From IMG/VR virus record IMGVR_UViG_3300037847_005729, positions 1 through 64,000 of that record: a DNA stretch of 64,000 nt; one strand, written 5' to 3'. A program made the position numbers and the translations under genes. The notes beneath the pieces were generated by a model. That model was not told the DNA's origin, searched no databases, and saw only the letters and a list, made by a program, of their open reading frames with translations. The DNA is from a virus. Positions 17,338 through 63,964 of this stretch are shown piece by piece (position 1 is the first letter of the stretch; the number at the start of each line of letters is the position of its first letter).

Positions 17338-17371
17338 TTGACTTTTTAAATAAGCCACGTAGTATGGCGTG
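17338..17371 (+). promoter_or_regulatory. Sigma70-like promoter of the helicase gene, leaderless
   Basis: TTGACT (17338-17343), 16 nt, TAGTAT (17360-17365), then 6 nt to ATG 17372. Initiation 6-8 nt after the -10 would place the mRNA 5' end on the start codon. Same geometry as twelve other sites in the window. Confidence 0.75.
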
Positions 17372-18886
17372 ATGATGTATAGTTATGAGATTGAAAAACA
17401 GGTATTAGCCGCACTCATACAAAAACCTAAAGATTTTATAGATTATTTTACATTCTTAAAGTCTGATGATTTTTATGATAAAAACTCCCTTTTAAACAAA
17501 ACTATTTTCCTATCCTTAAAAAACGCTGTAGTAAAAGGGGAAAGCATAGATGAAGTTATTCTATGTCAAAGATTACAAGACTTGGGGATAAGTTTTGAAG
17601 ACGATATTAATTTATCAGATTACATACAATCACTTTCTATAAGAAAAATACAATCACAATCTAAGATAGAAAGCTTAATAAGAGAGTTAAGAAAACTCAC
17701 TGTTAGGAGAGAAATATCGGCCACAGCTGACACGATATCTAAAAAAATGAAGTCTATGTCTGCTGAAAAATCTTATAATGAAATTGTAGACACGGCTGAT
17801 AAACTTTACAACTCTCAAATAAATTTATTTGAAAATGGTGTTGATACGCCATCTAATATCTATGATGAAATGGAAGATTTCATAGAGGAACGTGGCAATA
17901 ATCCGATTGAGGAATTTGGCTTTATGGGGCCTCACGAAAAAATTAATGACATATATGGTTCTTTATTAAGGCCTGGAAATATCACTGTCATAGTAGCTAG
18001 ATCTGGTGTAGGTAAAACACAGTTTTGTATGGATTATGCTACTAAAACCGCAGCCAAATACGATGTTCCAGTTTTACATTTTGATAATGGAGAAATGAGT
18101 AAAGAAGAGCTTGTTATTAGGCAGTGTGCTGCTTTGTCTGGTGTACCTGCTCATTTATTAGAAAGTGGCAAATGGAGACAAGCTGGAGATGATACAGTTG
18201 CTAGAGTTAGAAGTGTTTGGGCTAAAGTTAAAAAATTAAAATTTTACTACTATAATGTTGGTGGGTTAGAAGTTGATAATATAATTAACACACTAAAAAG
18301 ATTTTACTATTCAAAAGTTGGAAGAGGCAACAAGATGATTTTTTCTTTTGATTATATCAAAACTTCATCTGAAAAATCTAATAAAAACGAGTGGCAAGTT
18401 GTAGGTGAGATGGTTGATAAATTTAAAAAATGTATTCAAAAAGAGATATTAGAGGACGGCAATCCAGTCATACCAATGATTACATCTGTTCAAAGTAATA
18501 GATATGGAATCACAAACAATAGAAACGCACAAAATATAATTGATGATGAATCTGTTGTCTCTTTGTCGGACAGAATAGTACATTTTTGTTCTCATATGTT
18601 TATACTTAGGAGCAAATCAAATGATGAAATTATAGATGAGCATGATTCTTTTGGCACACATAAACTAATTAATATTAAGTCAAGACACTTAGGTAAAGAT
18701 ATAGCTGGTGCGGTAGAGCCAGTTAGAGTTGGAGATAATCTTCGTAAAAACTTTATCAACTTAGAGTTTAAAAACTTTTGCATAACAGAAAAAGGTGACC
18801 TTAGAGATATAGTTAATTTTACAGAAAATCAAGAAAACTTAGAATTAACAGATCCACAAGATATTCCAAATTTTGATTCACTATGA
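17372..18886 (+). CDS. Replicative DNA helicase, DnaB/gp41 type
   Basis: About 504 residues. The N-terminal DnaB-N-like domain opens YEIEKQVLAALIQKPKDF. The RecA-fold motor has Walker A VIVARSGVGKTQF near 207, then LHFDNGEMSKEELVIRQ (H1a-like), IFSFDYIKT as Walker B, and MITSVQSNR with the glutamine sensor motif. This matches DnaB/T4 gp41-type ring helicases that unwind 5'-3' ahead of the polymerase. The promoter geometry favours ATG 17372 or 17375 over the GTG at 17369. It overlaps the primase gene by 4 nt, the usual helicase-primase pairing. Confidence 0.9.
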   Translation: MMYSYEIEKQVLAALIQKPKDFIDYFTFLKSDDFYDKNSLLNKTIFLSLKNAVVKGESIDEVILCQRLQDLGISFEDDINLSDYIQSLSIRKIQSQSKIESLIRELRKLTVRREISATADTISKKMKSMSAEKSYNEIVDTADKLYNSQINLFENGVDTPSNIYDEMEDFIEERGNNPIEEFGFMGPHEKINDIYGSLLRPGNITVIVARSGVGKTQFCMDYATKTAAKYDVPVLHFDNGEMSKEELVIRQCAALSGVPAHLLESGKWRQAGDDTVARVRSVWAKVKKLKFYYYNVGGLEVDNIINTLKRFYYSKVGRGNKMIFSFDYIKTSSEKSNKNEWQVVGEMVDKFKKCIQKEILEDGNPVIPMITSVQSNRYGITNNRNAQNIIDDESVVSLSDRIVHFCSHMFILRSKSNDEIIDEHDSFGTHKLINIKSRHLGKDIAGAVEPVRVGDNLRKNFINLEFKNFCITEKGDLRDIVNFTENQENLELTDPQDIPNFDSL

Positions 18887-19920
18887 AATACAGAGATTCT
18901 TTAGAAAAATTAGGTTATGTATTAAAAGACCACGGCAATCATTGGCGAACTAGTGCTGTTTATAGAAATGGAAAAACTAGTACATCTGTTATAATATATA
19001 AAAACACTGGTGTATGGAGAGATTTTGGTATAGACTCTACTCCATTACCATTTAAAGTTTTAGTAGAAAAAACGCTTAATACAAAAGACCCTAAAATATT
19101 AAAACAATATGTTTCAGATTCAGCAGTTGATACAGAAACATATCAACCTAAAGAAGAAAAAATACAGATGGAAAAAATATACCCCAAATCATATTTAGAA
19201 AAACTTTTACCTATAAGAAATTTTTATCAAAAGAAAAATATCTCAACAGAGACTCAAGAATTATTTATGTGCGGATATGCTGGAAATGGTAAAATGTATC
19301 GTCGTATTGTTTTTCCAATTTTTAATTTAGATAATCAAATACATGGTTTTTCTGGTCGCACTGTCGTAGAGGGAGATAATATACCGAAATGGAAACATTT
19401 GGGTAGAAAAACAGATTGGGTTTATCCACATCACCTTGCTCACGACCACATTGATAAGCAAGGAGAAGTTATTTTAGTAGAAAGTATTGGCGACTGTATG
19501 GCTCTTTATGAAGCTGGATTTAAAAATGTTTTGATGCTCGCTGGTTTAGATATCTCATCTAAAGTAATGTCGTATCTTAATACTTTTAATTTAGATAAAA
19601 TCATTGTAGCAATGAACAATGATAAAAACAAAGAAACTAACTCTGGTGGTATAGCTTCAGTTAAAACCGTTGCAAAATTATCTCAAATATATGATTTAAA
19701 TGTCATATCCATTAATCCACCATTACTTAATGACTTTGGAGATATGTTACATGGTGATCCTCCTAATACTGATATATTTTCAAGTTGGTACGCAAGAAAA
19801 GATAAATGGAACTTAGGAGATGAAAAAACACAAGATTGGATAAAATCTAAAATAGAAAACAACGAATCATTAAATAAAAACGGTTCTTGTAAAAAATTAA
19901 TTAAAATTTTAAATTCGTGA
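18883..19920 (+). CDS. DNA primase (TOPRIM, DnaG-like)
   Basis: 345 residues, without an evident N-terminal CxxC zinc finger. GNGKMYRRIVFPIFNLDNQI corresponds to the DnaG core that precedes TOPRIM, and the TOPRIM domain follows with VILVESIGDCMALYEAGF (Glu motif) and KIIVAMNNDKNKE in place of DxD. The Asp of the canonical DxD appears as NNDKN, so metal binding is slightly altered. Next to the helicase it probably forms the phage primosome. Shorter than bacterial DnaG (~580), with no long C-terminal DnaB-binding domain. Confidence 0.85.
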   Translation: MKYRDSLEKLGYVLKDHGNHWRTSAVYRNGKTSTSVIIYKNTGVWRDFGIDSTPLPFKVLVEKTLNTKDPKILKQYVSDSAVDTETYQPKEEKIQMEKIYPKSYLEKLLPIRNFYQKKNISTETQELFMCGYAGNGKMYRRIVFPIFNLDNQIHGFSGRTVVEGDNIPKWKHLGRKTDWVYPHHLAHDHIDKQGEVILVESIGDCMALYEAGFKNVLMLAGLDISSKVMSYLNTFNLDKIIVAMNNDKNKETNSGGIASVKTVAKLSQIYDLNVISINPPLLNDFGDMLHGDPPNTDIFSSWYARKDKWNLGDEKTQDWIKSKIENNESLNKNGSCKKLIKILNS

Positions 19921-20084
19921 AAAAGGTAGTAATATGGAGAGTTCTCTCAATAGTTCTTTGTACCCTAATGGCCAGACTCTGGTTTGGGGATTGGCATGTT
20001 ACCCTTTTTGGTATTTTCATTTCGTTTGTTATGACTATAGTTCATTATTATTTCGAAAAAATTTGGGACATTTATGGAAGTTAA
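19917..20084 (+). CDS. DUF2061-like small membrane protein
   Basis: 55 residues, GTG start overlapping the primase stop as GTGA and overlapping the next gene by 11 nt. The sequence has VIWRVLSIVLCTLMARLWFG, then a second hydrophobic segment (VTLFGIFISFVMTIVHYYFE) and ends KIWDIYGS. The pattern 'WR..S...T....W..G', a second helix and 'HY..EKiW' matches the two-helix inner-membrane family DUF2061. Function unknown. Confidence 0.7.
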   Translation: MKKVVIWRVLSIVLCTLMARLWFGDWHVTLFGIFISFVMTIVHYYFEKIWDIYGS

Positions 20085-21538: not shown

Positions 21539-21572
21539 TTGACAAATCGACATTACCATCTATATTGGTGAT
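21539..21572 (+). promoter_or_regulatory. Sigma70-like promoter of the polymerase genes, leaderless
   Basis: TTGACA (21539-21544), 16 nt, TATATT (21561-21566), 6 nt, ATG 21573. Best-matching member of the leaderless promoter set within the replication module. Confidence 0.82.
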
Positions 21573-22268
21573 ATGATTCCATTATTTAAGACACATTCGT
21601 CTATAGGCAAAAGCATTTTACGAGTAGATGATGTACACGAGTTAACAAAGGACTTCGAAGAGGTTCACTTTGTTGAAGACAGTATGACGGGTTTTCCAGA
21701 AGCCTTTAGAAAGTTTGAAGATAGGTTACGTTTTGGTTTGCGTTTCTCTGTGTATAATGACGACCAAAGCGAAGAATCAGAAAGTAAAATGATTGCTTTC
21801 GCAAATGGTGATGCTGGTGCAAAAGAATTATATAATCTTTACACCCAACAATCGGACACAAAGATCACAAGGCCTTGGGACTCTACAAAAAATTTACAGT
21901 ATGTTGTACCCTTTTACGATTCTTTCTTACATAAAAATTTAACAACTTTTTCTAACTGTGTTGTCGATTTACCTCGAGATATACCTTTTATTATAGAAGA
22001 TAACAATCTCCCTTTTGATTGTTTGATTGAAGATAAAATATTAAATTACTGCAAGAATCATTTAAACGAAAACTTTAATGCAAAGTCAATATATTATAAA
22101 GACAAAGAAGATGTTTTGGCTTTTCAAACTTATAAATTAATTTGTAACCGCAGGATAGGTAGAACTTATGATCTATCGAACCCTGGACTAGATCACTTTG
22201 GTAGTGACGAATTTTGTTTCGCATCATGGAAGAATTACTTAGGTACAACTTTAAACAACGCTATATAG
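21573..22268 (+). CDS. Separate PHP-domain part of DNA polymerase III alpha
   Basis: 231 residues. IPLFKTHSSIGKSILRVDD resembles the opening of the PHP domain of bacterial PolIII alpha (His-x-x-x-S...), and NPGLDHFGSDEFCFASWKNY near the C-terminus resembles the segment ending PHP domains of DnaE/PolC-type polymerases. The exonuclease and polymerase core follow as separate overlapping genes, so this looks like one piece of a split enzyme. Metal ligands are not all recognisable, so it may be structural rather than catalytic. It has its own leaderless promoter. Confidence 0.6.
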   Translation: MIPLFKTHSSIGKSILRVDDVHELTKDFEEVHFVEDSMTGFPEAFRKFEDRLRFGLRFSVYNDDQSEESESKMIAFANGDAGAKELYNLYTQQSDTKITRPWDSTKNLQYVVPFYDSFLHKNLTTFSNCVVDLPRDIPFIIEDNNLPFDCLIEDKILNYCKNHLNENFNAKSIYYKDKEDVLAFQTYKLICNRRIGRTYDLSNPGLDHFGSDEFCFASWKNYLGTTLNNAI

Positions 22269-49705: not shown

Positions 49706-49732
49706 TAAGTTGTTTGTTTTCAACTACTTACG
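49706..49732. repeat. Single palindromic unit related to the GC-cored elements
   Basis: TAAGTTGTTTG...CAACTACTTACG can pair TAAGT/ACTTA and GTT/AAC, and resembles one arm of the larger palindromes at 59.5-63.0 kb. It sits between the end of one transcription unit and the rIIA promoter. Confidence 0.55.
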
Positions 49733-49763
49733 AAATCGTCTCTGAAAAGAGGCGATTTTTTTT
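49733..49763 (+). terminator. Rho-independent terminator before rIIA
   Basis: Eleven-base-pair stem AAATCGTCTCT / AGAGGCGATTT (one G-T pair), GAAA loop, then further T residues to 49763. It closes the membrane-protein operon immediately upstream of the rIIA promoter. Confidence 0.9.
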
Positions 49764-49774: not shown

Positions 49775-49810
49775 TTGACATATCAGAATTTTATGTATCT
49801 AATCGGCACT
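49775..49810 (+). promoter_or_regulatory. Sigma70-like leaderless promoter of rIIA
   Basis: TTGACA (49775-49780), 17 nt, TCTAAT (49798-49803), 7 nt, ATG 49811. It lies inside the in-frame upstream extension of the ORF, which shows that 49811 and not 49775 is the start. Confidence 0.8.
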
Positions 49811-53937: not shown

Positions 53938-54232
53938 TTTTACCTTTGGTGGCTTGACGATTCGAGCCACCAAAAAACTAACCCCCAACAAATTTAAAAA
54001 AATTTTAAAAAAAATGCAAAATGCAAATTATATTGTGCGAGACTGCCAATCAAAAAAAGTAGTCAACTTTTATTCAACTAAACTGCCTAAGGCATCAATT
54101 ATGGCTCACGAGTGTCGTAGAGATATGAAAGCTCTAAGTGGTAGAGAACACGAAGTTCTTATTAAGGTTGAGGGACAAGATTATATATTAACAGAGGAGG
54201 AATACAATGGATTGGCTAACACAGAAAATTAA
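53912..54232 (+). CDS. Hypothetical basic protein
   Basis: 106 residues, basic, no family recognised. KKLTPNKFKKILKKMQNANY is encoded in part by a copy of the dispersed AATTTAAAAA repeat (53990-54014). GREHEVLIKVEGQDYILTEE toward the end reads as strands. It overlaps its neighbours on both sides. Confidence 0.5.
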   Translation: MKLSTYQISFTFGGLTIRATKKLTPNKFKKILKKMQNANYIVRDCQSKKVVNFYSTKLPKASIMAHECRRDMKALSGREHEVLIKVEGQDYILTEEEYNGLANTEN

Positions 54233-54422
54233 AGAAACAGAAAAGTGGTTGAGTCAAAACCAACGACAAGCGTCTTTACCTACAATGGAGATTGAAGATG
54301 CTTTGCATAAACAAGAGGTATCTCACAAAAGAGAAATTTTAAGTCTGTTACATCAATTCAGACACCACCCATTATCTACTAACCCAAAACCAAAGGAGAA
54401 AATTGAGCAAAAACATTTCTAG
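54207..54422 (+). CDS. Hypothetical helical protein
   Basis: 71 residues starting MDWLTQKIKETEKWLSQNQR and mostly helical. The start has a perfect Shine-Dalgarno (AGGAGG, seven bases upstream), which is rare in this window and decides the start. It overlaps the previous gene by 26 nt and the next TTG-started ORF by 20 nt. Confidence 0.6.
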   Translation: MDWLTQKIKETEKWLSQNQRQASLPTMEIEDALHKQEVSHKREILSLLHQFRHHPLSTNPKPKEKIEQKHF

Positions 54423-54579
54423 TGTTGACAAGTCTGTCGAAAACGAGTCGTATGGTAAAAAACAAAACGACTTTCTAAATTGGCTTCAAGCAAAACTTGA
54501 AGAAGAAACACAAAAAGAATCATATAAAAATTACTACAAAAATGAGCAAACAAACAGAAAACGGATACCTCGAAGATGA
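54403..54579 (+). CDS. Possible 58-residue protein with TTG start
   Basis: Begins SKNISSVDKSVENESYGKK after the TTG; Lys/Glu-rich. AAGGAG lies four to five bases before the TTG. It overlaps both neighbours in other frames. The ribosome site is the main support. Confidence 0.4.
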   Translation: MSKNISSVDKSVENESYGKKQNDFLNWLQAKLEEETQKESYKNYYKNEQTNRKRIPRR

Positions 54580-54835
54580 GGACGACAATCAAGCACCAAG
54601 CGAGTTGCTAGAGTACCTAGCAGAAGATTGTTTAAAATTAGACGGACTCAACGAGGCAATCGTTGGAGTAACATCACAAGGATACCTAGTTTACGACTAC
54701 GAGAAAATCATAGGAGTATTTATGAAACAAGGAATGGAAAATGACGAAGCTATTGAGTTCTTCGACTACAATGTTCTAGGTCTTGAGGGTAATGGTAATT
54801 GGGTTATAATGAAAAGCAGAGAATATTATGTATAA
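54542..54835 (+). CDS. Hypothetical acidic protein
   Basis: 97 residues from ATG 54542. MSKQTENGYLEDEDDN is an acidic start; LLEYLAEDCLKLDGLNEAIV, then YLVYDYEKIIGVFMKQGMEN look like a small alpha/beta domain. The upstream in-frame ATG (54497) only adds a Lys-rich stretch and overlaps the preceding ORF more. It overlaps the transglycosylase gene by 8 nt. Confidence 0.55.
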   Translation: MSKQTENGYLEDEDDNQAPSELLEYLAEDCLKLDGLNEAIVGVTSQGYLVYDYEKIIGVFMKQGMENDEAIEFFDYNVLGLEGNGNWVIMKSREYYV

Positions 54836-55286
54836 GTTAGAAAAAATTGTCCAAGTTATTGTCCTTATCGCATTTGTTTTGGTGTGTGTTAGGGCTTGCA
54901 CATCTCAAGTGTTCGGTAGCGTTGATGTTATTGATGTTATCGTAGCTATCGAAAAGGTAGAATCGAACAACAATCCTTATGCTATAAACATAAAAGAAAA
55001 TGCTATCGGCTCGTTGCAGATTCGAGAGATTATGATTGCTGATTATAACAGAATCACAAATCAAAACCTGCCACACAATGTTGCATACAATCGTGCTATG
55101 GCTTACATTATAGCATCAGAAATCTTTTCCTATTATATGCAGTTCATTGACAAGCCAAATGCGAAGCACCTAGCTTTCATTTGGAATGGTGGTGGCTCTG
55201 CTTGGAAACGAGTGGATAATCCAAAGAATGACCAAAAGCAAAAAAACCTTGACTTGTATTGGGAGAAAGTCAAACTACACCTATGA
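54828..55286 (+). CDS. Lytic transglycosylase-like endolysin with signal anchor
   Basis: 152 residues. LEKIVQVIVLIAFVLVCVRA is an N-terminal hydrophobic segment (signal or signal-arrest-release type, with Cys at its end). VIVAIEKVESNNNPYAINIK gives the catalytic Glu with S-x-x-x-P/A as in SLT/goose lysozymes, AIGSLQIREIM is the GxxQI motif, and HLAFIWNGGGSAWKR the W-NGG element. It would cleave peptidoglycan in the periplasm at lysis. Likely phage endolysin. The holin-like genes lie 6-7 kb upstream rather than adjacent. Confidence 0.8.
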   Translation: MYKLEKIVQVIVLIAFVLVCVRACTSQVFGSVDVIDVIVAIEKVESNNNPYAINIKENAIGSLQIREIMIADYNRITNQNLPHNVAYNRAMAYIIASEIFSYYMQFIDKPNAKHLAFIWNGGGSAWKRVDNPKNDQKQKNLDLYWEKVKLHL

Positions 55287-55801
55287 ATATATTTTGTTTA
55301 GACCAAGACCCAATACAATCAGCCAAGTGGTTGTGCGACCAACATTGTAACAAGATGGTGTTAGAGTCAGCACAGATGGTTGCCAACTGCTTTACATTGG
55401 AAACACTTGAGTCAGCACCTAAGACACAAAAAGGTACTGCTCGCAAACATTCTTACTACAAGCACCCTTGCTCTATATGGGCAAGGGAAACTATGGGTAA
55501 TCTTGTTTGGCTTCTTAATCATTCTCTTGCTATGGAGATTGAGAGATTAGACAGAGGATTCAAGCCACACTTTTCGGCAGAGTTCTTGCATTGGGCTTTC
55601 AATAATTGGCAATCAGCAGATAATATGAAGTTCCATACAACTCACACCACACCTTTTGCAATCGCCATCAGCGACAATATGACTTGCAGACAAGACCCAA
55701 CATTCGATTCCGTTGACGAAGTCGGCAAGTATCGCTTGTATTATAAACACGACAAACCATTTGCCACTTGGAAGAAAAACAAACCTATGTGGATAATTTA
55801 A
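55283..55801 (+). CDS. Conserved phage protein of unknown function
   Basis: 172 residues from ATG 55283 (ATGA overlap). NIFCLDQDPIQSAKWLCDQH, then CNKMVLESAQMVANCF and HPCSIWARETMGNLVWLLNH are conserved-looking blocks with several His/Cys, recalling a family common in tailed phages ('CDkHv.KM.lEsaQml'). No function is established from sequence; metal binding by the Cys/His cluster is possible. Confidence 0.6.
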   Translation: MNIFCLDQDPIQSAKWLCDQHCNKMVLESAQMVANCFTLETLESAPKTQKGTARKHSYYKHPCSIWARETMGNLVWLLNHSLAMEIERLDRGFKPHFSAEFLHWAFNNWQSADNMKFHTTHTTPFAIAISDNMTCRQDPTFDSVDEVGKYRLYYKHDKPFATWKKNKPMWII

Positions 55802-55819
55802 AAAAATTTAAAAAAATTT
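55795..55819. repeat. Dispersed AATTTAAAAA repeat
   Basis: Two and a half ~11-bp units of AATTTAAAAAA directly before the ATG at 55820. One of about twelve copies between 49.5 and 59.6 kb. Confidence 0.6.
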
Positions 55820-56104
55820 ATGAGTATAGAAATTACAAAATCAGCAGAAGAAACTTACAGAAGAGTATTGCACTCGCTAAATGTTAAGTACAAAGGTCAA
55901 GAAATCCTAGTTGTTATTGATGATGATGACAATGGTGGTAGCGTGAACTTTTATGATATGGAACGAAACGAATTATCTGATTCGGCAGTCGTTGAGGTTT
56001 TACAAGAGTTTTTCTCAGAGTATCGTGAGCCAAGCGAGTTGACTGAGAATAAAAAGTGGTTTTTTGACAAAGAAGATGGATATTGGTGGGAAGATGTGGA
56101 TTGA
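55820..56104 (+). CDS. Hypothetical acidic protein
   Basis: 94 residues, no family recognised. SAEETYRRVLHSLNVKYKGQ, ILVVIDDDDNGGSVNFYDME and a Trp-rich end (KWFFDKEDGYWWEDV). The acidic composition recalls DNA-mimic or host-takeover proteins, but nothing more specific can be said. The dispersed AT repeat lies directly upstream. Confidence 0.5.
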   Translation: MSIEITKSAEETYRRVLHSLNVKYKGQEILVVIDDDDNGGSVNFYDMERNELSDSAVVEVLQEFFSEYREPSELTENKKWFFDKEDGYWWEDVD

Positions 56105-56133
56105 AAAACTAATCCTACCCTTTATTATAGGGT
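56101..56133 (+). promoter_or_regulatory. Sigma70-like leaderless promoter with overlapping inverted repeat
   Basis: TTGAAA (56101-56106), 16 nt, TATTAT (56123-56128), 5 nt, ATG 56134. ACCCT/AGGGT flank the -10, a possible operator. Confidence 0.55.
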
Positions 56134-56343
56134 ATGATTCCTCAAGAAGTATATGGTGTTATGTTTTTTATAGTAGCAGTTATTATATTTAGTCTAGGTT
56201 GTTGGTATCTATGTTGGTGGGTTGACAAAGAGAAAGACTTTGTCGCTCGCAAATGTAGGCAAAAAACTAGACAATATGCTAGACAAGAGAGGAGATACAA
56301 GAGACATTTGAAAGCAAGAAAAGACTTAGGTAAACTATTATGA
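56134..56343 (+). CDS. Small membrane protein with basic tail
   Basis: 69 residues: VYGVMFFIVAVIIFSLGCWY is a transmembrane helix, followed by a strongly basic tail (RKCRQKTRQYARQERRYKRH). One-TM proteins with a basic cytoplasmic tail often occur among phage early genes; function unknown. Its stop overlaps the next start as ATGA. Confidence 0.55.
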   Translation: MIPQEVYGVMFFIVAVIIFSLGCWYLCWWVDKEKDFVARKCRQKTRQYARQERRYKRHLKARKDLGKLL

Positions 56344-56441
56344 TTTGGGGTATTTTGATTATTTTTGGGGTTTTGACCTTATTATATATATCAATCATTA
56401 GATGGCTAGATGCTCTAGGAAAGGAAACAGAAGATGAGTAA
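56340..56441 (+). CDS. 33-residue membrane microprotein
   Basis: Begins MIWGILIIFGVLTLLYISII and ends in a short acidic tail (GKETEDE). ATGA overlap with the upstream gene and an 8-nt overlap with the next support translation. Confidence 0.5.
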   Translation: MIWGILIIFGVLTLLYISIIRWLDALGKETEDE

Positions 56442-56637
56442 TTATGTTTCGTTAAAGTCTGTCGGTTGTTTGTATTTTTTTGATACAGAGACCACTTATC
56501 CTCTTGACAATCGTAACAGAGTATGTTTTACTGAGGGTGTTCACTTGAAAGATGTTGATACATATTGGGTAAAAAAATTAAGTAAAGCAGACAAAAAACT
56601 AATTCAGAAAGATTTAAAAAAATTTAAAAAAATTTGA
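56434..56637 (+). CDS. Hypothetical protein
   Basis: 67 residues. GCLYFFDTETTYPLDNRNRV is strand-like, and the C-terminus (LSKADKKLIQKDLKKFKKI) is encoded partly by the AATTTAAAAA repeat. An AAGGAAACAG stretch precedes its start. No function recognised. Confidence 0.5.
   Translation: MSNYVSLKSVGCLYFFDTETTYPLDNRNRVCFTEGVHLKDVDTYWVKKLSKADKKLIQKDLKKFKKI
56612..56635. repeat. Dispersed AATTTAAAAA repeat, inside a gene end
   Basis: GATTTAAAAAAATTTAAAAA followed by AATTT; it encodes the last residues (LKKFKKI) of the upstream ORF. Confidence 0.55.
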
Positions 56638-56786
56638 TGAACATTCCAAACTCACTAAACAATCACTTTGAATCGGTATTCTTAAATGCCAAAACACCAA
56701 ACAAAAATTACAAATTAAACTTATATGAAACCACCACCAAGAAAAACAGAAGAAGAAATGACAATGAAAGAGTTGCGAGAGCATAA
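56637..56786 (+). CDS. Possible 49-residue protein
   Basis: TGATG overlap with the previous stop; begins MNIPNSLNNHFESVFLNAKT and ends in Arg/Asn-rich residues. It overlaps the 56725 gene by 62 nt in a different frame. Supported only by the coupling. Confidence 0.3.
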   Translation: MNIPNSLNNHFESVFLNAKTPNKNYKLNLYETTTKKNRRRNDNERVARA

Positions 56787-57186
56787 AAAACTCAAAGAAG
56801 CAGAAGCTGAAGCTGACAGAATAGAAGAAGAAGAAAGAGAAAAAGCTATTGTTGGTACTACTGATGTACAGAATTGTCTAATTACAGAAGCCGAACGAGA
56901 TATTAGAATCGTTAAGAGTAAGATTGATGATATGAAAGAAAGATATTATGCTTATGATTCAGAGTATGGATATGTAAACAAACTAGAAAATCTATACGCT
57001 GAGTTGGCAACTGCCGAGCATAAGCTACAAATGATTCGATTATATCCGTTCAATGCACCGATAACCACCGATACATCAAATCGTAATCACGATTGGCATA
57101 AAGAAATGTATCACGAAGCCACAAGTCAGTATGAGAATCTGTCTGACTTACCTCAATCAGAGGATTGGACACACGATTATAATTAA
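56725..57186 (+). CDS. Hypothetical coiled-coil protein
   Basis: 153 residues. The first ~45 are Glu/Lys-rich helix (MTMKELREHKKLKEAEAEAD), followed by AERDIRIVKSKIDDMKERYY, also coiled-coil-like, and a hydrophilic end (NRNHDWHKEMYHEATSQYEN). No catalytic motif or membrane segment; possibly a structural or scaffolding helper. Confidence 0.5.
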   Translation: MKPPPRKTEEEMTMKELREHKKLKEAEAEADRIEEEEREKAIVGTTDVQNCLITEAERDIRIVKSKIDDMKERYYAYDSEYGYVNKLENLYAELATAEHKLQMIRLYPFNAPITTDTSNRNHDWHKEMYHEATSQYENLSDLPQSEDWTHDYN

Positions 57187-57222
57187 TTTAAAAAAGTTTA
57201 TTATAATTTAAAAAAAATTTAA
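57184..57222. repeat. Dispersed AT repeat in the 57187-57340 gap
   Basis: AATTTAAAAAAG...AATTTAAAAAAAATTTAA. The rest of this 154-bp gap holds no ORF; TAAAAT (57328-57333) lies 7 nt before ATG 57341 but without a good -35. Confidence 0.5.
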
Positions 57223-57340
57223 TTACAAATTACTATACAGATATATAAGAGAAAACATTATAAAAAAAAGAAAATGGTTGGAAATGGGTTAAAATGGGTA
57301 ATTATATACCTCGCCCTTACCTAACTATAAAATATGTGCT

Positions 57341-57559
57341 ATGAAAAATGATTTAGAATACTATGTTGGATACGCTTGTTGTATCGTTGTTGGATTATTA
57401 TTGGTTATTCCTTATGCTATTATAAGGGGTTTGTTGGAGTCTGTTGTGTTAATACCTAACATATTAAAGCACTACAAACAGAATCAATATGAAAGAAAGA
57501 TAAAGAACCAAGTAGATGATATAATGAGAGAAGATGAGCCACAAAGACCAATCTTTTAA
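57341..57559 (+). CDS. Small membrane protein
   Basis: 72 residues. YVGYACCIVVGLLLVIPYAI is a transmembrane helix with two Cys, then GLLESVVLIPNIL may be a second short hydrophobic segment, and the C-terminus is charged (QVDDIMREDEPQRPIF). No family recognised. Confidence 0.5.
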   Translation: MKNDLEYYVGYACCIVVGLLLVIPYAIIRGLLESVVLIPNILKHYKQNQYERKIKNQVDDIMREDEPQRPIF

Positions 57560-57565
57560 AACACG

Positions 57566-57601
57566 AATTTAAAAAAATTTATTTAAATTTATTAAAATTT
57601 T
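57566..57601. repeat. Dispersed AT repeat
   Basis: AATTTAAAAAAATTTATTTAAATTT followed by ATTAAAATTTT, in the gap between two membrane-protein genes. Confidence 0.5.
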
Positions 57602-57629
57602 GGGGCATTTTGGGCAATTTTAAAAACTC

Positions 57630-57694
57630 TTGACGAATGAAAAAAAATCCAAATATCGCTTGACAAAGCACACAAATCCAAATATCGTGTTAGT
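57630..57694 (+). promoter_or_regulatory. Tandemly duplicated leaderless promoter
   Basis: TTGACG (57630) and TTGACA (57660) each lead into a direct repeat AATCCAAATATCG (57646-57658 and 57675-57687). The second copy gives TTGACA, 17 nt, TATCGT (57683-57688), 6 nt, ATG 57695. The 29-30 bp duplication suggests either an alternative promoter or a repressor operator pair. Confidence 0.6.
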
Positions 57695-57766
57695 ATGATG
57701 AGTTTAATATATCTATTGATTGGTGTTCTGTGGGTCTTATATAGAGAATGGAAAGCAGAAATTTAA
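57695..57766 (+). CDS. 23-residue membrane microprotein
   Basis: MMSLIYLLIGVLWVLYREWK then AEI. One hydrophobic helix with a charged end. Its start lies 6 nt after a promoter -10, and it overlaps the next gene by 19 nt. Confidence 0.45.
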   Translation: MMSLIYLLIGVLWVLYREWKAEI

Positions 57767-57951
57767 AAAAATTTAAAAAAAATTTAGTCGCCAAATTGAA
57801 ATGTCGCCAAATATTGACTTGGACAAATATGGCAGTCGGTTGTCTTGTCGCATCAATTATCTTGTTCTTTTGTGGTATGGTATCGCACGGAATATTCTTT
57901 GCCGTAGTGTCAAACTCTATGATGAACCTAGCCAAACTAAAAAAAACATAA
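57748..57951 (+). CDS. Small membrane protein
   Basis: 67 residues. The basic start (ESRNLKKFKKNLVAKLKCRQ) is partly encoded by the AT repeat. MAVGCLVASIILFFCGMVSH and GIFFAVVSNSMM form a helical hairpin. No family recognised. Confidence 0.5.
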   Translation: MESRNLKKFKKNLVAKLKCRQILTWTNMAVGCLVASIILFFCGMVSHGIFFAVVSNSMMNLAKLKKT

Positions 57952-57957
57952 GACAAC

Positions 57958-58002
57958 AAATTTAAAAAAATTTAAAAAAACTTTTAAAAATTTAAAAAAA
58001 AA
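57958..58002. repeat. Longest dispersed AT repeat, upstream of a promoter
   Basis: AAATTTAAAAAAATTTAAAA and further units with ~10-11 bp period, ending two bases before a TTGACA. Phased A-tracts here could act as an UP element or bent DNA. Confidence 0.6.
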
Positions 58003-58003
58003 G

Positions 58004-58038
58004 TTGACATACATAAAACATAGTCTATATTGGGTACT
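58004..58038 (+). promoter_or_regulatory. Sigma70-like leaderless promoter
   Basis: TTGACA (58004-58009), 16 nt, TATATT (58026-58031), GGGTACT, ATG 58039. Nearly the same -10 region as the promoter at 21539. Confidence 0.85.
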
Positions 58039-58305
58039 ATGAAAACATTAAACAAAGATGGCACACCTAGAAAAGTAGGTAGTGGCAGAAAGAAAGGGGC
58101 AAACTCATTTGCCAATGTAACACTAGAGGACTTACAACAATTTTGTGGGTCAGCTACCCTTATTCCAATCAGTCGTGTATGGCTTGAGAAGATGGGGGCA
58201 AACATATCATCAGCACCTACTAACATTACAACACAAGAAAAAGAGTTAGATAAGGTTGAAGAAAAAATCTCATTTAAAGTTCACAATTTTGTTGACAACA
58301 ACTAA
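58039..58305 (+). CDS. Small DNA-binding-like protein
   Basis: 88 residues from ATG 58039; the TTG at 58030 lies inside the -10 and is rejected. GTPRKVGSGRKKGANSF is a GRK-rich, AT-hook-like segment, followed by NVTLEDLQQFCGSATLIPIS, which could be a helix-turn-helix-like or SH3-like unit. A regulator or nucleoid-binding protein is plausible. It precedes the RuvB-like gene. Confidence 0.5.
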   Translation: MKTLNKDGTPRKVGSGRKKGANSFANVTLEDLQQFCGSATLIPISRVWLEKMGANISSAPTNITTQEKELDKVEEKISFKVHNFVDNN

Positions 58306-58326
58306 TCATCTGTCATTATCCGTATT
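58292..58326 (+). promoter_or_regulatory. Sigma70-like leaderless promoter of the RuvB-like gene
   Basis: TTGACA (58292-58297), 17 nt, ATTATC (58315-58320), 6 nt, ATG 58327. The -35 lies inside the end of the preceding gene. Confidence 0.65.
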
Positions 58327-59256
58327 ATGAAAACTACCACATATAAAAATCTCGTTGGTCAGAACGAAGTAAAAAAACAACTGACATTCTATTCAGAAGC
58401 ACAAAACAAAAGTGGCGTTGCACCATTCTTAATGTTGAGTGGGGCAAAGGGCTTGGGTAAAACTGAGTTCGCCAAGCGTTATGCTTCTAGTCTCAAGAAC
58501 CAAGACGGCACTACTCGTGCTTTCCTAGAGATTAACTGCTCTACTATCAAGAACGCTAATTCATTCTTTGAGCAGATATTTCTACCTATCGTGATGCACA
58601 ATGAGATTACTATCTTGTTTGATGAAGCTCATATGCTTCCCAAGGACTTGGTAAATGCTTTCCTTACTATATTCAATACAGAAAAGGGAACATACAAAGA
58701 ATTTCATCACGCAGAACAAATTTTTCAGTTTGATTTCAAGAAGCAATGTTTCATCTTTGCTACTACTGAGATGGACAAACTCTTCCCTCCGTTCAAGGAC
58801 AGATTGACAATCGTGGATTTCCGTCCGTATGCAGTCGAAGAGTTGGGGCAAATCATTGGTCTTATCGCATCAGAGATTAAGTTCGGTGAGGGTGTTTTGG
58901 ACGAAGTCGCAGAGACCACTCGTGGCAATGCTCGTTCAGCAGTTATGAGAACCAAAGAGATTATGTTGTATTGTGAGAGAGCCAATCAGAATACATATGA
59001 CCTAAAGGATTGGAAAAAGATGTGTGGTATCCTAGACATCAAACCTCTTGGATTGTCCAACCTAGAAGTCGAGCTTCTCAAGATTCTCCAAGAGCGAGGT
59101 AATTGTTCGTTACAGATGCTATCAGCAGTAACAGGTATGAGCAGAACTGCAATCCAAAAGGAAGCCGAACTTTATCTACTGAAGCGTGGGCTAATGAAGA
59201 TAAATGGTCAGCGTGAGATAAGTGGCAAGGGAATGAATGTCCTAGAGAAGATTTAA
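58327..59256 (+). CDS. RuvB-like AAA+ ATPase
   Basis: 309 residues. NLVGQNEVKKQLTFYSEAQN is the opening RuvB/clamp-loader block, LMLSGAKGLGKTEFAKRYA is Walker A, ITILFDEAHMLPKDLVNAFL is Walker B with sensor region, CFIFATTEMDKLFPPFKDRL sensor I/Arg-finger area, and TRGNARSAVMRTKEIM sensor II. The C-terminal LGLSNLEVELLKILQERGNC with MSRTAIQKEAELYLLKRGLM is a winged helix as in RuvB. It would drive Holliday-junction branch migration or clamp-loader-like work. No RuvA or RuvC is seen nearby. Confidence 0.82.
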   Translation: MKTTTYKNLVGQNEVKKQLTFYSEAQNKSGVAPFLMLSGAKGLGKTEFAKRYASSLKNQDGTTRAFLEINCSTIKNANSFFEQIFLPIVMHNEITILFDEAHMLPKDLVNAFLTIFNTEKGTYKEFHHAEQIFQFDFKKQCFIFATTEMDKLFPPFKDRLTIVDFRPYAVEELGQIIGLIASEIKFGEGVLDEVAETTRGNARSAVMRTKEIMLYCERANQNTYDLKDWKKMCGILDIKPLGLSNLEVELLKILQERGNCSLQMLSAVTGMSRTAIQKEAELYLLKRGLMKINGQREISGKGMNVLEKI

Positions 59257-59294
59257 TGTATGTGTAGTATGTTGTTGTCATAATAAAAATTAGG

Positions 59295-59348
59295 TTCGGC
59301 AGGGTGCGAGCGAATTCATCTCAAACAATACCTGCCGAATCTTTTTTT
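59295..59348 (+). terminator. Terminator after the RuvB-like gene
   Basis: TTCGGCAGG (59295-59303) pairs with CCTGCCGAA (59331-59339); a long 27-nt loop, then TC and seven T. The long loop makes it less classical but the T-run supports termination. Confidence 0.7.
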
Positions 59349-59473
59349 GTGCAAATATAGTCGACAAACCACACCAAACCAAATAAAGCACCAAAATGGC
59401 ACCAAATCAAATAAAGGCTTAATAAGACACATAACCACATATAACATATTATAAAGTTCTGGAAGTAAAAAGT

Positions 59474-59551
59474 CGTAAGTTGTTGATTATCAAGGAGTTG
59501 CAAAACGCGCCCGGTCGGCCGCCGCAAGTCGTTGATTACCAAGCACTTATG
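59474..59551. repeat. GC-cored palindromic element A
   Basis: 78 bp: CGTAAGTTGTTGATTATCAA and following bases form the left arm, a GC-rich core contains CGGCCG, and the right arm GCAAGTCGTTGATTACCAAG ends CACTTATG. The arms are inverted copies of each other and each is itself an imperfect palindrome. Confidence 0.75.
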
Positions 59552-59563
59552 AATGTCAAGCAA

Positions 59564-59588
59564 AAATTTAAAAAAATTTAAAAAAAAA
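59564..59588. repeat. Dispersed AATTTAAAAA repeat
   Basis: AAAATTTAAAAAAATTTAAA plus further A; on the minus strand its reverse complement supplies the T-run of the terminator next to it. Confidence 0.5.
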
Positions 59589-59618
59589 CTCGCCCCTCAG
59601 TTTTTTTGAGAGGCGAGT
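59575..59618 (-). terminator. Rho-independent terminator of the DUF932-like gene
   Basis: On the minus strand ACTCGCC-T-CTCA pairs with TGAG-G-GGCGAGT (one C-A mismatch) around a poly-A loop, followed by a T-run longer than nine. It lies 13 nt after the DUF932-like stop. Confidence 0.85.
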
Positions 59619-59631
59619 CGTAAAGCGTTGG

Positions 59632-60420
59632 CTAGGAGGCGTTTATGACCTCTGCCACCTTTGGCTTGCGAGAGTTCGCATAGGTGTCAAGCACAGAGTG
59701 AAGCGAGCTTGAACGCTTTGCCGTGTTCGTGAGGTTGCCACGATACACATTTGTGAAAGCGTTTGAAAGCGACCACAAGTCACGACCCTCAAAGTCCTCG
59801 TGTTGAGGTGCGTGCCATTGGTTGACAATGTCAGTCACTTGAGTTTTGGAACAAGCCCCATTACGAAAACCACGCACGATTAAGTCGTGTGCGATTCTGT
59901 CGTCAATCTCGGTTTCCTTGTAGGAATCGATACGCTTCTCGGAAGTGACCCAAGACTCGCAAAGCTGACCGATAGCACGACCAAGCAAAGACGGCAAGTC
60001 ACGCATGATGTGCGTAGTGTGCTTGCGACCCAACACGATTTCATTGTTGAAAATCATATTGGTGCAAACGAAAGGTGCATCGCCTGCACAGACCATCGCA
60101 CGAGACGATTTATCGTGTGAGTTGCGAAGCCCAAAGATTGTACCGACCTCGGCATCGTGCTTGCGAGCGATACCCTTGACTTGGAACAAGCCGAAGTAGC
60201 GTTGCCCATAACGATGCAAGGTGTGATGCTCTTGAACGATGTCAAGATTTGGTGTGTTAGCGATAGCCTCACGAAAATCTTTTACAAGACCATCGTGTGA
60301 AACAGGTTGCCATTGTTCGGTAGCCTGTGGTGTTGCAACTTTCTCGACATCTGAGAAGTCGCTTGCCTCGCCTGCACAGACACGCAGGTCGAGTAGTTTT
60401 GGATTTAGTATGTTAACCAT
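59632..60420 (-). CDS. DUF932-like phage/plasmid protein
   Basis: 262 residues from ATG 60420 (MVNILNPKLL); the longer reading starts inside the -10. WQPVSHDGLVKDFREAIANT, then YFGLFQVKGIARKHDAEVGT, IFGLRNSHDKSSRAMVCAGD and FVCTNMIFNNEIVLGRKHTT follow the conserved order of DUF932 proteins found on phages and plasmids. Function of the family is unknown. The gene is clearly richer in G+C than its surroundings, suggesting recent transfer. It has its own leaderless promoter and terminator. Confidence 0.75.
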   Translation of the reverse strand: MVNILNPKLLDLRVCAGEASDFSDVEKVATPQATEQWQPVSHDGLVKDFREAIANTPNLDIVQEHHTLHRYGQRYFGLFQVKGIARKHDAEVGTIFGLRNSHDKSSRAMVCAGDAPFVCTNMIFNNEIVLGRKHTTHIMRDLPSLLGRAIGQLCESWVTSEKRIDSYKETEIDDRIAHDLIVRGFRNGACSKTQVTDIVNQWHAPQHEDFEGRDLWSLSNAFTNVYRGNLTNTAKRSSSLHSVLDTYANSRKPKVAEVINAS

Positions 60421-60455
60421 ACATAAGAACATAGACTATTTGATGTGATTGTCAA
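60421..60455 (-). promoter_or_regulatory. Leaderless promoter of the DUF932-like gene
   Basis: Minus strand: TTGACA (60455-60450), 16 nt, TATGTT (60433-60428), CTTATGT, ATG 60420. Confidence 0.78.
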
Positions 60456-60512: not shown

Positions 60513-60532
60513 TAAAAACAGCCTTAGAATTA

Positions 60533-60611
60533 CGTAAGTCGTTGATTATCAACGAGTTGCGGCGGCGCCCCCGCCCGCGCGTCGCAAGTCACTGATTATT
60601 AGTAACTTACG
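60533..60611. repeat. GC-cored palindromic element B
   Basis: 79 bp. Left arm CGTAAGTCGTTGATTATCAA with CGAGTTGC, a core of 23 bp nearly all G+C (contains GGCGCC), and right arm GCAAGTCACTGATTATTAGT with AACTTACG. Outer ends CGTAAGT/ACTTACG pair perfectly. It lies 15 bp after the stop of the 60626 gene and before the next minus-strand promoter. Confidence 0.8.
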
Positions 60612-60625
60612 ACACGAAAAAAGTT

Positions 60626-61079: not shown

Positions 61080-61781
61080 TTAAGAGCATTCTAAAACAAA
61101 ACCACTTTCATCTTTTTTTGCAAGCCCTTTTTCAACCAAGCCTACAATTTTGTTTTGTCCGTCTAAGAATCTCAAGTCAGTTTCGTCTCCGTCAATCACT
61201 TCACGACCTTGCCAAGTTTTTGGAAGTCCGTTGCGAAAAACACAAGCGACATTTGCCCCTAATGAAAGCAATTTTTTTGTTTCGTTGTCGTTGCATTCGC
61301 TCCTTGAAAATGTTAAGTGATAGTTGCTAGGAAGTTTTCCGTCTAAGTATTTCTCAACTCGCTTTACTGATTTAGTGTAGTCATAGAATTGAACATCAGA
61401 AAACCAATCCATCAGTTTAAGTCCGTTATACTTTTGAGATTCCCAAGCTATATCGCTAGTTAAGTTAAGTCTAAAGCAAGGCGTCATTCCTTTTTTTGTC
61501 GCTAACTTTACTGCGTTAGAAATTTCTCTAACAAGTTGACGCATAAAATTTTCTTTGTCGTTAAAGAATCTTTTTGTCTTTGCTATTCGAGATTTTTGAA
61601 CATTAGAGAATTTACCACGACCTGCAGTATTTAAGCAAGCCTCAGCACAACCTTTAGAAGCCCAAGCACAAGCATTATGCCCACTCAAGTTAAAAGGTGC
61701 AAGGTGTAAGCCAAAAGTGATAAAGCCTAGCTTTTCCCCTTTGATTGTTTTAGCGTTTCCGTTATTAAGTAGTTTAGTCAT
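61080..61781 (-). CDS. GP88-like phage protein
   Basis: 233 residues. KLGFITFGLHLAPFNLSGHN, then ACAWASKGCAEACLNTAGRG, RIAKTKRFFNDKENFMRQLV and FRLNLTSDIAWESQKYNG match the 'gene product 88' family of mycobacteriophage and other phages ('T.G.hLAP...SG.N.Cp.as.GC...Cl.t.Grg....v...R..rt..f..d'). The Cys cluster suggests metal or Fe-S binding. Function unknown. It has a leaderless promoter. Confidence 0.75.
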   Translation of the reverse strand: MTKLLNNGNAKTIKGEKLGFITFGLHLAPFNLSGHNACAWASKGCAEACLNTAGRGKFSNVQKSRIAKTKRFFNDKENFMRQLVREISNAVKLATKKGMTPCFRLNLTSDIAWESQKYNGLKLMDWFSDVQFYDYTKSVKRVEKYLDGKLPSNYHLTFSRSECNDNETKKLLSLGANVACVFRNGLPKTWQGREVIDGDETDLRFLDGQNKIVGLVEKGLAKKDESGFVLECS

Positions 61782-61817
61782 AGTTTATATAATGGTAGAA
61801 AAGTTAAGCCTTGTCAA
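61782..61817 (-). promoter_or_regulatory. Leaderless promoter of the GP88-like gene
   Basis: Minus strand: TTGACA (61817-61812), 17 nt, CATTAT (61794-61789), ATAAACT, ATG 61781. GCCTTGTC (61808-61815) overlapping the -35 is repeated in inverted form, GACAAGGC, at 61854-61861: a possible operator. Confidence 0.65.
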
Positions 61818-61878: not shown

Positions 61879-62124
61879 TTAAATTAATTTAAAGTCTCTA
61901 ATTCTAGACTTGTAGAAAGAGCGAACACCACCATCTTTGAAGCTAGAAGCAAAAGAGTAAGTGTTGAACATATCGCCAAAGTCCTCAATGAAATTCATAT
62001 CTATATAGTAAGTACCTAACTCACCATCAGAAGTTTTCTTTGAGTAGACAATTTTTGCCATATTTTTACGCTCGAAAGCCCTACGAAATGCAAGGCGAAT
62101 TTTTTGGAATATATTTAGTTTCAT
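61879..62124 (-). CDS. Hypothetical protein
   Basis: 81 residues from ATG 62124 (MKLNIFQKIRLAFRRAFERK), an amphipathic basic N-terminal helix. AKIVYSKKTSDGELGTYYID follows as strands. The longer in-frame reading extends over the promoter region. AGAGAA precedes the start. No family recognised. Confidence 0.5.
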   Translation of the reverse strand: MKLNIFQKIRLAFRRAFERKNMAKIVYSKKTSDGELGTYYIDMNFIEDFGDMFNTYSFASSFKDGGVRSFYKSRIRDFKLI

Positions 62125-62170
62125 AATTTTTTCTCTGTTAAGATTTTCAATTTTAGATTTATAAGATAGC

Positions 62171-62413
62171 TTATTTCTCAATGATTGTCAAGCCCTTATT
62201 TAAATTTCTCAAGATTTCCTCGCCAACAATTTCGCAAGCTCTTCTTTGGCTTTTTGTTAAGCCACGCTTATCAAATCCGTTTTGTTGTTCGATAACATCA
62301 GCTAGACGCTCGATAGTCCAAACAGCATCATTTAAATGTGCTGGATTTATTTGTTTTGGCTTATAAGAAAAAGCCTTATCAATAATTTTGTCTTTAAGAA
62401 TTTTAATTGTCAT
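62171..62413 (-). CDS. Hypothetical protein, paralogue of the 63694 gene
   Basis: 80 residues from ATG 62413. TIKILKDKIIDKAFSYKPKQ, then GLTKSQRRACEIVGEEILRN align clearly with TIKQTQDEITEKAFSFEPHR and GLTKAQTKACEEIGKKLLEK of the 63694 product, so these are paralogues. Helical, soluble. The function is unknown. Start fixed by its leaderless promoter. Confidence 0.6.
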   Translation of the reverse strand: MTIKILKDKIIDKAFSYKPKQINPAHLNDAVWTIERLADVIEQQNGFDKRGLTKSQRRACEIVGEEILRNLNKGLTIIEK

Positions 62414-62448
62414 AGTATCTACTATATACCATCGCCAAATAAAGTCAA
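62414..62448 (-). promoter_or_regulatory. Leaderless promoter
   Basis: Minus strand: TTGACT (62448-62443), 16 nt, TATAGT (62426-62421), AGATACT, ATG 62413. Confidence 0.78.
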
Positions 62449-62560: not shown

Positions 62561-62580
62561 TCTTACAGCATCAGATTTTT

Positions 62581-62659
62581 CGTAAGTTGTTGTTATTCAA
62601 AGAGTTGCGGCGCGCCCCGGGGTGCGAACCTGCAAGTCGTTGACCTGCAGGCACTTACG
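62581..62659. repeat. GC-cored palindromic element C
   Basis: 79 bp. Left arm CGTAAGTTGTTGTTATTCAA with AGAGTTGC, a core containing GGCGCGCC and CCCCGGGG, and right arm GCAAGTCGTTGACCTGCAGG with CACTTACG. Its right end is 3 bp from the stop of the 62663 gene. Confidence 0.78.
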
Positions 62660-62662
62660 TGA

Positions 62663-62860
62663 TTAGTAACCACACACACCGCGATAGGGTTCGTCCACCC
62701 ACGTACACTCTTCGAGGCGAGCGAGGTTGACGTCCACGCCACCCTCACGCTCGGCGTATGCTTCAGCCATAGCGTCAAGTTCAGCGTCAGAATGATTTGC
62801 CCAAGGGTCGAAAGAAGCAACAGCCTCTTGATTGTCGTTAGTATTATTAATGTTAGCCAT
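62663..62860 (-). CDS. Small acidic hypothetical protein, GC-rich gene
   Basis: 65 residues. ANHSDAELDAMAEAYAEREG is an acidic helix, followed by VNLARLEECTWVDEPYRGVC. No family recognised. The gene is markedly richer in G+C than its surroundings, with codons such as GCG, CGC and CTC that are rare in the left half, suggesting foreign origin. A leaderless promoter gives the start. Confidence 0.55.
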   Translation of the reverse strand: MANINNTNDNQEAVASFDPWANHSDAELDAMAEAYAEREGGVDVNLARLEECTWVDEPYRGVCGY

Positions 62861-62894
62861 GATTACAGTATGGATTATTTGATTTCATTGTCAA
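62861..62894 (-). promoter_or_regulatory. Leaderless promoter
   Basis: Minus strand: TTGACA (62894-62889), 16 nt, CATACT (62872-62867), GTAATC, ATG 62860. Confidence 0.7.
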
Positions 62895-62924
62895 GGGTTT
62901 TTTTAAAAAAAGTTTATTTTTTTT

Positions 62925-63000
62925 TAAGTTGTTGCGTGTCAAGTACTTGCGATTTTGATGGGCCCGCGAGTCGCAAGTCCCTAACAACCAAGGACTTACG
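62925..63000. repeat. GC-cored palindromic element D
   Basis: 76 bp. Left arm TAAGTTGTTGCGTGTCAAGT with ACTTGCG, a core with GGGCCC, and right arm GCAAGTCCCTAACAACCAAG with GACTTACG. Inner ACTTGCGA/TCGCAAGT pair perfectly. No sigma-54-like sequence precedes it. Confidence 0.75.
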
Positions 63001-63040
63001 ACTTGAGTTAGCTCAGACTAACTCGGCTATGACAACAACA

Positions 63041-63154
63041 TTAAAACATATATGAGACAACTGCTTGGATAATGTCAAACTTATTTATTGCAATGCCCGT
63101 GACTGTGGTTATGCATAGGGCAACGATTGTGAATCTGTCAATAATTAATTTCAT
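63041..63154 (-). CDS. 37-residue membrane microprotein
   Basis: MKLIIDRFTIVALCITTVTG followed by IAINKFDII, ending SYMF; one hydrophobic helix. GGAGAA lies 8-9 nt before the ATG, and the gene follows the next upstream microORF by 5 nt. Supported by ribosome site and operon position. Confidence 0.5.
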   Translation of the reverse strand: MKLIIDRFTIVALCITTVTGIAINKFDIIQAVVSYMF

Positions 63155-63159
63155 TTTTT

Positions 63160-63312: not shown

Positions 63313-63316
63313 AGTC

Positions 63317-63673
63317 TTAGTCTCTCATTGAGTAAGCGATTGCCTCGCTTGTTTTGGTTTGGTTTTCGATGTAGTCGTTGATGACTGCAATGTCTGTAAC
63401 TTTGCAACGAGCGATTGCGTCAAGTGTTTCGCCCTCGCAAAGTCTTGTGCCGTTTTTGATGCAACGCTCTTGCAACCAATCTGCCATTTTACCGAACGCT
63501 TTATCCTCTGCTTCTAGAGAATTGTAACGCTCAAGAGTGTGAGTCGTTCCTCTCCAAGACTCGAAAGAATATTTTGTTGTGTCCTCGTCTGCTCGGAAGC
63601 CTACGAACTTCATTACTTCACCCTTTACAGGGTAGAAGCAACCGATTTCTAGAGTATTATTTGATGTTGTCAT
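63317..63673 (-). CDS. Hypothetical protein
   Basis: 118 residues. LEIGCFYPVKGEVMKFVGFR, YSFESWRGTTHTLERYNSLE and a C-terminal helical part (ERCIKNGTRLCEGETLDAIA). Beta then alpha layout, no family recognised. It has a leaderless promoter and heads the small-gene operon with the two membrane microproteins. Confidence 0.55.
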   Translation of the reverse strand: MTTSNNTLEIGCFYPVKGEVMKFVGFRADEDTTKYSFESWRGTTHTLERYNSLEAEDKAFGKMADWLQERCIKNGTRLCEGETLDAIARCKVTDIAVINDYIENQTKTSEAIAYSMRD

Positions 63674-63708
63674 AGTTTATAGAATAGGAATTTTTATGCT
63701 TTTGTCAA
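63674..63708 (-). promoter_or_regulatory. Leaderless promoter
   Basis: Minus strand: TTGACA (63708-63703), 16 nt, TATTCT (63686-63681), ATAAACT, ATG 63673. The 7-nt tail is identical to that of the 61781 promoter. Confidence 0.8.
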
Positions 63709-63930
63709 ACTTTTATTTAACTTTTCTAAAAGTTTTTTTCCAATTTCTTCGCAAGCTTTTGTCTGTGCTTTTGTTAAGCCTTGGTCGCCTAAAGTAAGTT
63801 GACCTTCGATTAGCGTTGCAAGATGTCCGAGATTGTAAGCAACTGATGAAAGGTTGCCGTTGATTCTGTGAGGTTCAAAAGAGAATGCTTTCTCTGTGAT
63901 TTCGTCTTGAGTTTGTTTAATTGTTATCAT
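63694..63930 (-). CDS. Hypothetical protein, paralogue of the 62171 gene
   Basis: 78 residues. ITIKQTQDEITEKAFSFEPH and GLTKAQTKACEEIGKKLLEK match the 62171 product along its length. The promoter of the next unit (63703-63708) lies within the end of this gene. No function known. Confidence 0.6.
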   Translation of the reverse strand: MITIKQTQDEITEKAFSFEPHRINGNLSSVAYNLGHLATLIEGQLTLGDQGLTKAQTKACEEIGKKLLEKLNKSLTKA

Positions 63931-63964
63931 ACTAACACTCTAAAGGATTTCTAAATTCTGTCAA
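63931..63964 (-). promoter_or_regulatory. Leaderless promoter
   Basis: Minus strand: TTGACA (63964-63959), 16 nt, TAGAGT (63942-63937), GTTAGT, ATG 63930. Confidence 0.72.

Follow-up and report, generated by a model that had tools for sequence, protein, structure and literature searches.

The stretch of DNA analysed here (the window: 64,000 of the 64,637 bases of virus record IMGVR_UViG_3300037847_005729, 33% GC) carries a set of sigma70-type promoters placed so close to ATG codons that the predicted +1 is very probably the A of the AUG or a base within 1–2 of it, and the resulting leaderless mRNAs would be read by host ribosomes without a Shine–Dalgarno (SD) sequence. The exact transcription start sites, the timing of expression, the use of the host sigma factor and initiation at a 5'-terminal AUG by host ribosomes are the parts of this explanation that we infer. 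The window encodes a DnaB-like helicase, a primase, an exonuclease, a DnaE-type polymerase and a RecA-like protein, together with lambda-like tail tip proteins, rIIA, a GP88-family protein and a nucleotide-sugar/glycan gene cassette; no tRNAs and no Rfam matches were found in it. A related polymerase occurs on 59 IMG/VR contigs.

Promoter sites and their spacing to start codons

All 13 sites cited in the initial annotation are present when the sequence is read directly, each with a −35 hexamer, a 16–17 nt spacer, a −10 hexamer and an ATG 5–7 nt further on. The −35 is TTGACA or TTGACT, with TTGAAA at site 56101 as the sole departure. The −10 had been described as TAnnnT-like, but CATTAT (58292 and 61817), CATACT (62894) and TCTAAT (49775) are NAnnnT or weaker. 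The likeness noted among the tails before the ATG is also partial: among window sites 79% have T at −1, as against 52% in relatives. The features are given below as −35, spacer length, −10, gap and position of the ATG.

14378–14416, plus strand: extra candidate within the preceding gene, ambiguous owing to coding constraint; TTGACT-16-TAGAAT-8-ATG (14414)
17338–17374, plus strand: predicted leaderless promoter of the DnaB-like helicase gene; TTGACT-16-TAGTAT-6-ATG (17372); promoter adjoins the start in 15 of 42 ortholog loci
21539–21575, plus strand: predicted leaderless promoter of a 231-aa gene upstream of the DNA polymerase gene; TTGACA-16-TATATT-6-ATG (21573); kept in 35 of 45 non-redundant orthologs
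49732–49759, plus strand: terminator-like hairpin directly upstream of the rIIA promoter; consensus match only
49775–49813, plus strand: predicted leaderless promoter of the rIIA-like gene; TTGACA-17-TCTAAT-7-ATG (49811); kept in two relatives, not in G003
56101–56136, plus strand: weak candidate before a 69-aa ORF; TTGAAA-16-TATTAT-5-ATG (56134); not conserved
57660–57697, plus strand: predicted leaderless promoter of a 23-aa ORF; TTGACA-17-TATCGT-6-ATG (57695); ORF and promoter kept in G002
58004–58041, plus strand: predicted leaderless promoter of an 88-aa gene; TTGACA-16-TATATT-7-ATG (58039)
58292–58329, plus strand: predicted leaderless promoter of a RuvB/AAA-like gene; TTGACA-16-CATTAT-7-ATG (58327); kept in 9 of 12 ortholog loci
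60418–60455, minus strand: predicted leaderless promoter of a DUF932 gene; TTGACA-16-TATGTT-7-ATG (60420); kept only in the nearest relative
61779–61817, minus strand: predicted leaderless promoter of a GP88 (PF17338) gene; TTGACA-17-CATTAT-7-ATG (61781); kept in 7 of 10 ortholog loci
62122–62191, minus strand: leadered exception; TTGACA-17-TATCTT, about 38 nt before the ATG (62124)
62411–62448, minus strand: predicted leaderless promoter of an 80-aa gene; TTGACT-16-TATAGT-7-ATG (62413)
62858–62894, minus strand: predicted leaderless promoter of a 65-aa gene; TTGACA-16-CATACT-6-ATG (62860)
63671–63708, minus strand: predicted leaderless promoter of a 118-aa gene; TTGACA-16-TATTCT-7-ATG (63673)
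63928–63964, minus strand: predicted leaderless promoter of a 78-aa gene; TTGACA-16-TAGAGT-6-ATG (63930)

Besides the leadered exception, a second strong promoter that is not leaderless lies at 52736 on the plus strand.

A strict promoter defined from outside (TTGAC[AT], 16–17 nt, NAnnnT) matches the window 28 times, and 14 of these are followed, 6–8 nt after the −10, by an ATG that opens an ORF of 20 aa or more; none has a gap of 2–5 nt, and seven have a gap of 9–40. An excess of such pairs over shuffled sequence had been predicted and is borne out, with 14 pairs at gap 5–8, while 200 dinucleotide-shuffled sequences gave a mean of 0.41 and a maximum of 3 (Poisson P ∼3e-17). Total matches, on the other hand, are only slightly in excess (28 vs 21.2), so the signal resides in the spacing to the ATG rather than in the abundance of the motif. 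A looser scan that allowed one mismatch in the −35 and two in the −10 gave 24 vs 10.4, the weak matches diluting the signal. TTGACA and TATAAT-like hexamers at 16–18 nt spacing are those of the housekeeping sigma70 promoter. Transcription from promoters of this geometry starts about 7 nt past the −10 hexamer, and the predicted +1 therefore falls on the A of the ATG, as the 6–8 nt gap at the 14 sites indicates.

Other features accompany the small genes of the right arm. Many copies of AAATTTAAAAAAATTT-type tracts lie between these genes or at their ends at 54000–60000, and four related, GC-rich imperfect palindromes of ∼85 nt (59470–59552, 60529–60613, 62577–62661 and 62922–63005; layout CGTAAGTYGTTGATTATCAA...GC-rich...GCAAGTCGTTGATTA...ACTTACG) are placed between leaderless genes, three of the four folding far more stably than shuffled sequence (z −3.5 to −4.3). 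The minus-strand leaderless genes at 62171–62413 and 63694–63930 share 71% DNA identity over 79 nt and encode similar proteins; they look like paralogs, which suggests a duplicated promoter–gene cassette.

Conservation in orthologs and related phages

The clearest case is the gene starting at 21573, for which 45 non-redundant orthologs were found by protein similarity. In the 35 orthologs noted above, at protein identities down to ∼37%, a promoter with a score of 9 or more out of 12 lies 5–8 nt before the aligned start, while random start codons on the same contigs gave a chance level of 1.4% each. Among the orthologs that keep the promoter TTGAC is invariant and the spacer columns are mostly variable. 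The protein alignments start at residue 1–3. The promoter is also often kept in orthologs of the GP88, RuvB-like and 58039 genes. A counterpart of the 23-codon ORF behind promoter 57660 can be recognised in G002 (MMSLIYLLIGVLWVLYREWKAEI / MESLIYIIIGIAWVIYNEYFRKI), with a leaderless promoter of its own, and G003 carries a promoter and a 23-codon ORF of weaker similarity at the matching position. Both the alignments of gene 21573 and the conserved 23-aa ORF would place the true protein start at the leaderless Met. Orthologs of the DUF932 gene outside the nearest relative and those of the gene at 56134 lack the promoter, as does rIIA in G003; site 56101 is the weakest, with a promoter in none of five ortholog matches from two relatives.

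Whole-record counts of the promoter-plus-ATG pattern, set against a reversed control, are high in eight related IMG/VR phages (for example, 75 vs 0 in G014, 28 vs 0 in G006, and 18 vs 0 in G001 and G017) and low in others; within the polymerase family itself, G015 (0 vs 1 in the control), G010, G011, G012 and G018 are near control. The eight contribute 185 additional sites with the same spike at 6–7 nt. Across the window and seven relatives the gap is 6–7 in 113 of 131 sites and 8 in 16. The distant relative G014 (IMGVR_UViG_3300029959_000001, 182 kb) has ∼68 leaderless promoters, 56 of them with a gap of exactly 6 nt, and a near-invariant 17-nt spacer; these lie mostly on one strand, from ∼76 kb on (loci L159–L167). 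By the same method no leaderless TTGACA site was found in six reference phages (including Pelagibacter phages, a Cellulophaga phage, Thermus P23-45, T5 and lambda), and four further marine phages gave 0–1 pattern matches.

Translation and the reading of the promoters

The initial annotation had also held that these genes lack SD sequences, and the lack proves to extend across the window. Scored as AGGA, GGAG or GAGG before starts, SD is at background, being present at 5 of 65 chosen genes against 7.5%, and at 5% against 6% in the automatic ORF set. The same method finds it at 61% of ORFs in T5, 43–46% in the Pelagibacter phages HTVC008M and HTVC023P, 68% in HMO-2011 and 53% in P23-45, and at ∼3% in Cellulophaga phiST and 8% in Polaribacter P12002L. 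Relatives of the window phage have low SD, although not zero in all (15% vs 6% in G002). A phage-encoded bS21 was rejected as the cause of SD-free translation, since none was found in the 19 records. Host ribosomes or a phage factor had been offered as alternatives; SD at background window-wide and the failure to find bS21 favour the former.

Since the hexamers match the housekeeping consensus, the most economical reader of the promoters would be host RNA polymerase with its housekeeping sigma. Each unit would yield a leaderless mRNA for its first gene, with SD-independent host ribosomes initiating at the 5'-terminal AUG; for the downstream genes of an operon, which often start within the gene before them, initiation would be SD-free and coupled. 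Many left-arm genes do begin within the preceding gene, and coupled re-initiation may fit them. A host with ribosomes that work without SD would account for the leaderless spacing and the near-absence of SD alike. Spacing, its conservation, homology from the leaderless Met and near-absent SD all strongly uphold the leaderless reading, the exact 5' ends being predicted. Early expression, which had been part of the original proposal, is plausible for the small-gene region.

Transcription could instead start slightly upstream, at a nearby purine, and leave leaders of 1–5 nt that are SD-free but do not strictly have a 5'-terminal AUG. An upstream purine is often present at gaps of 7–8 nt (e.g. GGGTACTATG at 58004), and the clade sites with a gap of 8 would suit such a start; yet gaps cluster at 6–7 and the window has none at 2–5, so that the A of the ATG falls at the usual +1/+2, and the base at −1 is mostly T. 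Short leaders of this kind are unlikely. Alternatively, these ATGs might not be the real starts, the promoters being near or inside genes by chance or serving other RNAs, with translation from a downstream codon. The pattern can indeed mislead: one match in lambda is what we take to be the PR promoter, which has an ATG at +1 although cro itself starts further downstream. The ORF filter and shuffles, homology from residue 1 and the conserved 23-aa ORF make this highly improbable for the sites described here.

That a phage sigma factor reads the promoters, so that the spacing of a phage-specific regulon would reflect the sigma rather than host biology, is quite unlikely. Sigma70 region 2 matches occur in 16 of 19 records, 11 of them above the cut-off, and correspond to proteins of ∼185–265 aa in relatives G001, G002, G004–G009 and G011–G018. 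However, the −35 and −10 are the ordinary housekeeping consensus, the window's own (possibly incomplete) record has no match, and the sigma-encoding relatives G011, G012, G015 and G018 have few or no leaderless sites. The relatives' protein may serve another gene class.

Host, precedents and implications

The near-absence of the ribosome-binding sequence suggests a host with SD-independent ribosomes. Matches to metagenome-assembled genomes were discordant, with polymerase relatives in Flavobacteriaceae, Flavobacteriales, Lokiarchaeota and Woesebacteria bins; protein matches to isolated phages were scattered over many hosts; and a single-sequence genome scan found nothing. Tetranucleotide similarity was uninformative, as relatives differ strongly from the window, partly via CCGG avoidance. 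In G002 (loci L185–L188) CCGG is almost absent, unlike in the window, which suggests restriction-site avoidance there. Pelagibacter-like hosts are disfavoured because their phages use SD, at the 43–46% given above against 5% here. A Bacteroidota host would agree with the lack of SD but not with the leaderless TTGACA layout: 60 Bacteroidota genomes showed no group-wide excess of the pattern. The Bacteroidota element TAnnTTTG occurs 134 times in the window against 108 for the reversed control, an enrichment as mild as that in the positive control phiST (171/127). Of the ORF starts in a 400 kb Patescibacteria sample, 12% have TAnnnT 6 nt upstream, against a background of 2%, and SD is low there; a TATAAT-like box 6–7 nt before the ATG together with low SD usage appears common in the sampled Patescibacteria (loci L223–L242). 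The full pattern exceeds the reversed control in 39 Patescibacteria genomes (G022, G031–G068), but this can happen in any genome whose promoters lie close to ATGs, and the excess is therefore no proof of a host. No literature on leaderless-looking Patescibacteria genes was found among the papers searched. The sampled Patescibacteria share the signature, which is a lead rather than a host assignment. A lead only is likewise offered by the glycan cassette, a long phage-borne series of overlapping sugar-nucleotide/glycan genes at 1–16000 (UDP-GlcNAc 2-epimerase, GDP-mannose dehydratase, carbamoyltransferase and HAD/nucleotidyltransferase among them), which would suit a host bearing surface polysaccharide. 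It is conceivable, though rather doubtful, that an aquatic phage family largely gave up SD initiation and expresses many small genes as separate leaderless units as a result of infecting SD-independent, non-Bacteroidota hosts, possibly Patescibacteria, in whose chromosomes the same leaderless TTGACA/TATAAT layout is seen.

Middle and late transcripts of Thermus phage P23-45 are reportedly leaderless, a systematic use within one phage like that proposed here; P23-45 nevertheless has SD at about half of its ORFs and no TTGACA-type leaderless sites. Bacterial leaderless genes with TANNNT ∼10–12 bp before the start are described in Actinobacteria and Deinococcus-Thermus (PMC3160421, PMC12340547); as in the window, the −10 adjoins the ORF, the predicted +1 is at the start codon and SD is absent, whereas the window phage is low in GC, has a −35 close to the TTGACA consensus and shows SD at background throughout. 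Bacteroidota and their phages lack SD (PMC6847099), and phiST and P12002L resemble the window in this respect; F. johnsoniae transcripts, however, are mostly leadered and phiST has no leaderless TTGACA sites. The strategy had been called unusual for a phage, but predicted leaderless promoters have precedents in mycobacteriophages, namely Corndog PL1 and PR2 (PMC4351075) and Adephagia gene 90 (PMC11373665), where the predicted +1 is likewise the start codon's first base. These accounts describe one or a few such promoters per genome, in contrast to 12–14 per 64 kb here, where the family is uncultured, and as many as 68 in one relative; the open-access papers searched contained no case of family-wide, conserved and nearly SD-free use as dense as this.

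With ∼200 predicted sites in nine phages, the sequence evidence indicates that leaderless expression can be a main, conserved strategy of a phage family, and is not an occasional oddity in this marine one. Precise predicted start sites, corrected gene starts and tiny genes missed by length filters follow from it, and the promoter–ATG signature may provide a way to find SD-independent hosts of uncultured phages.
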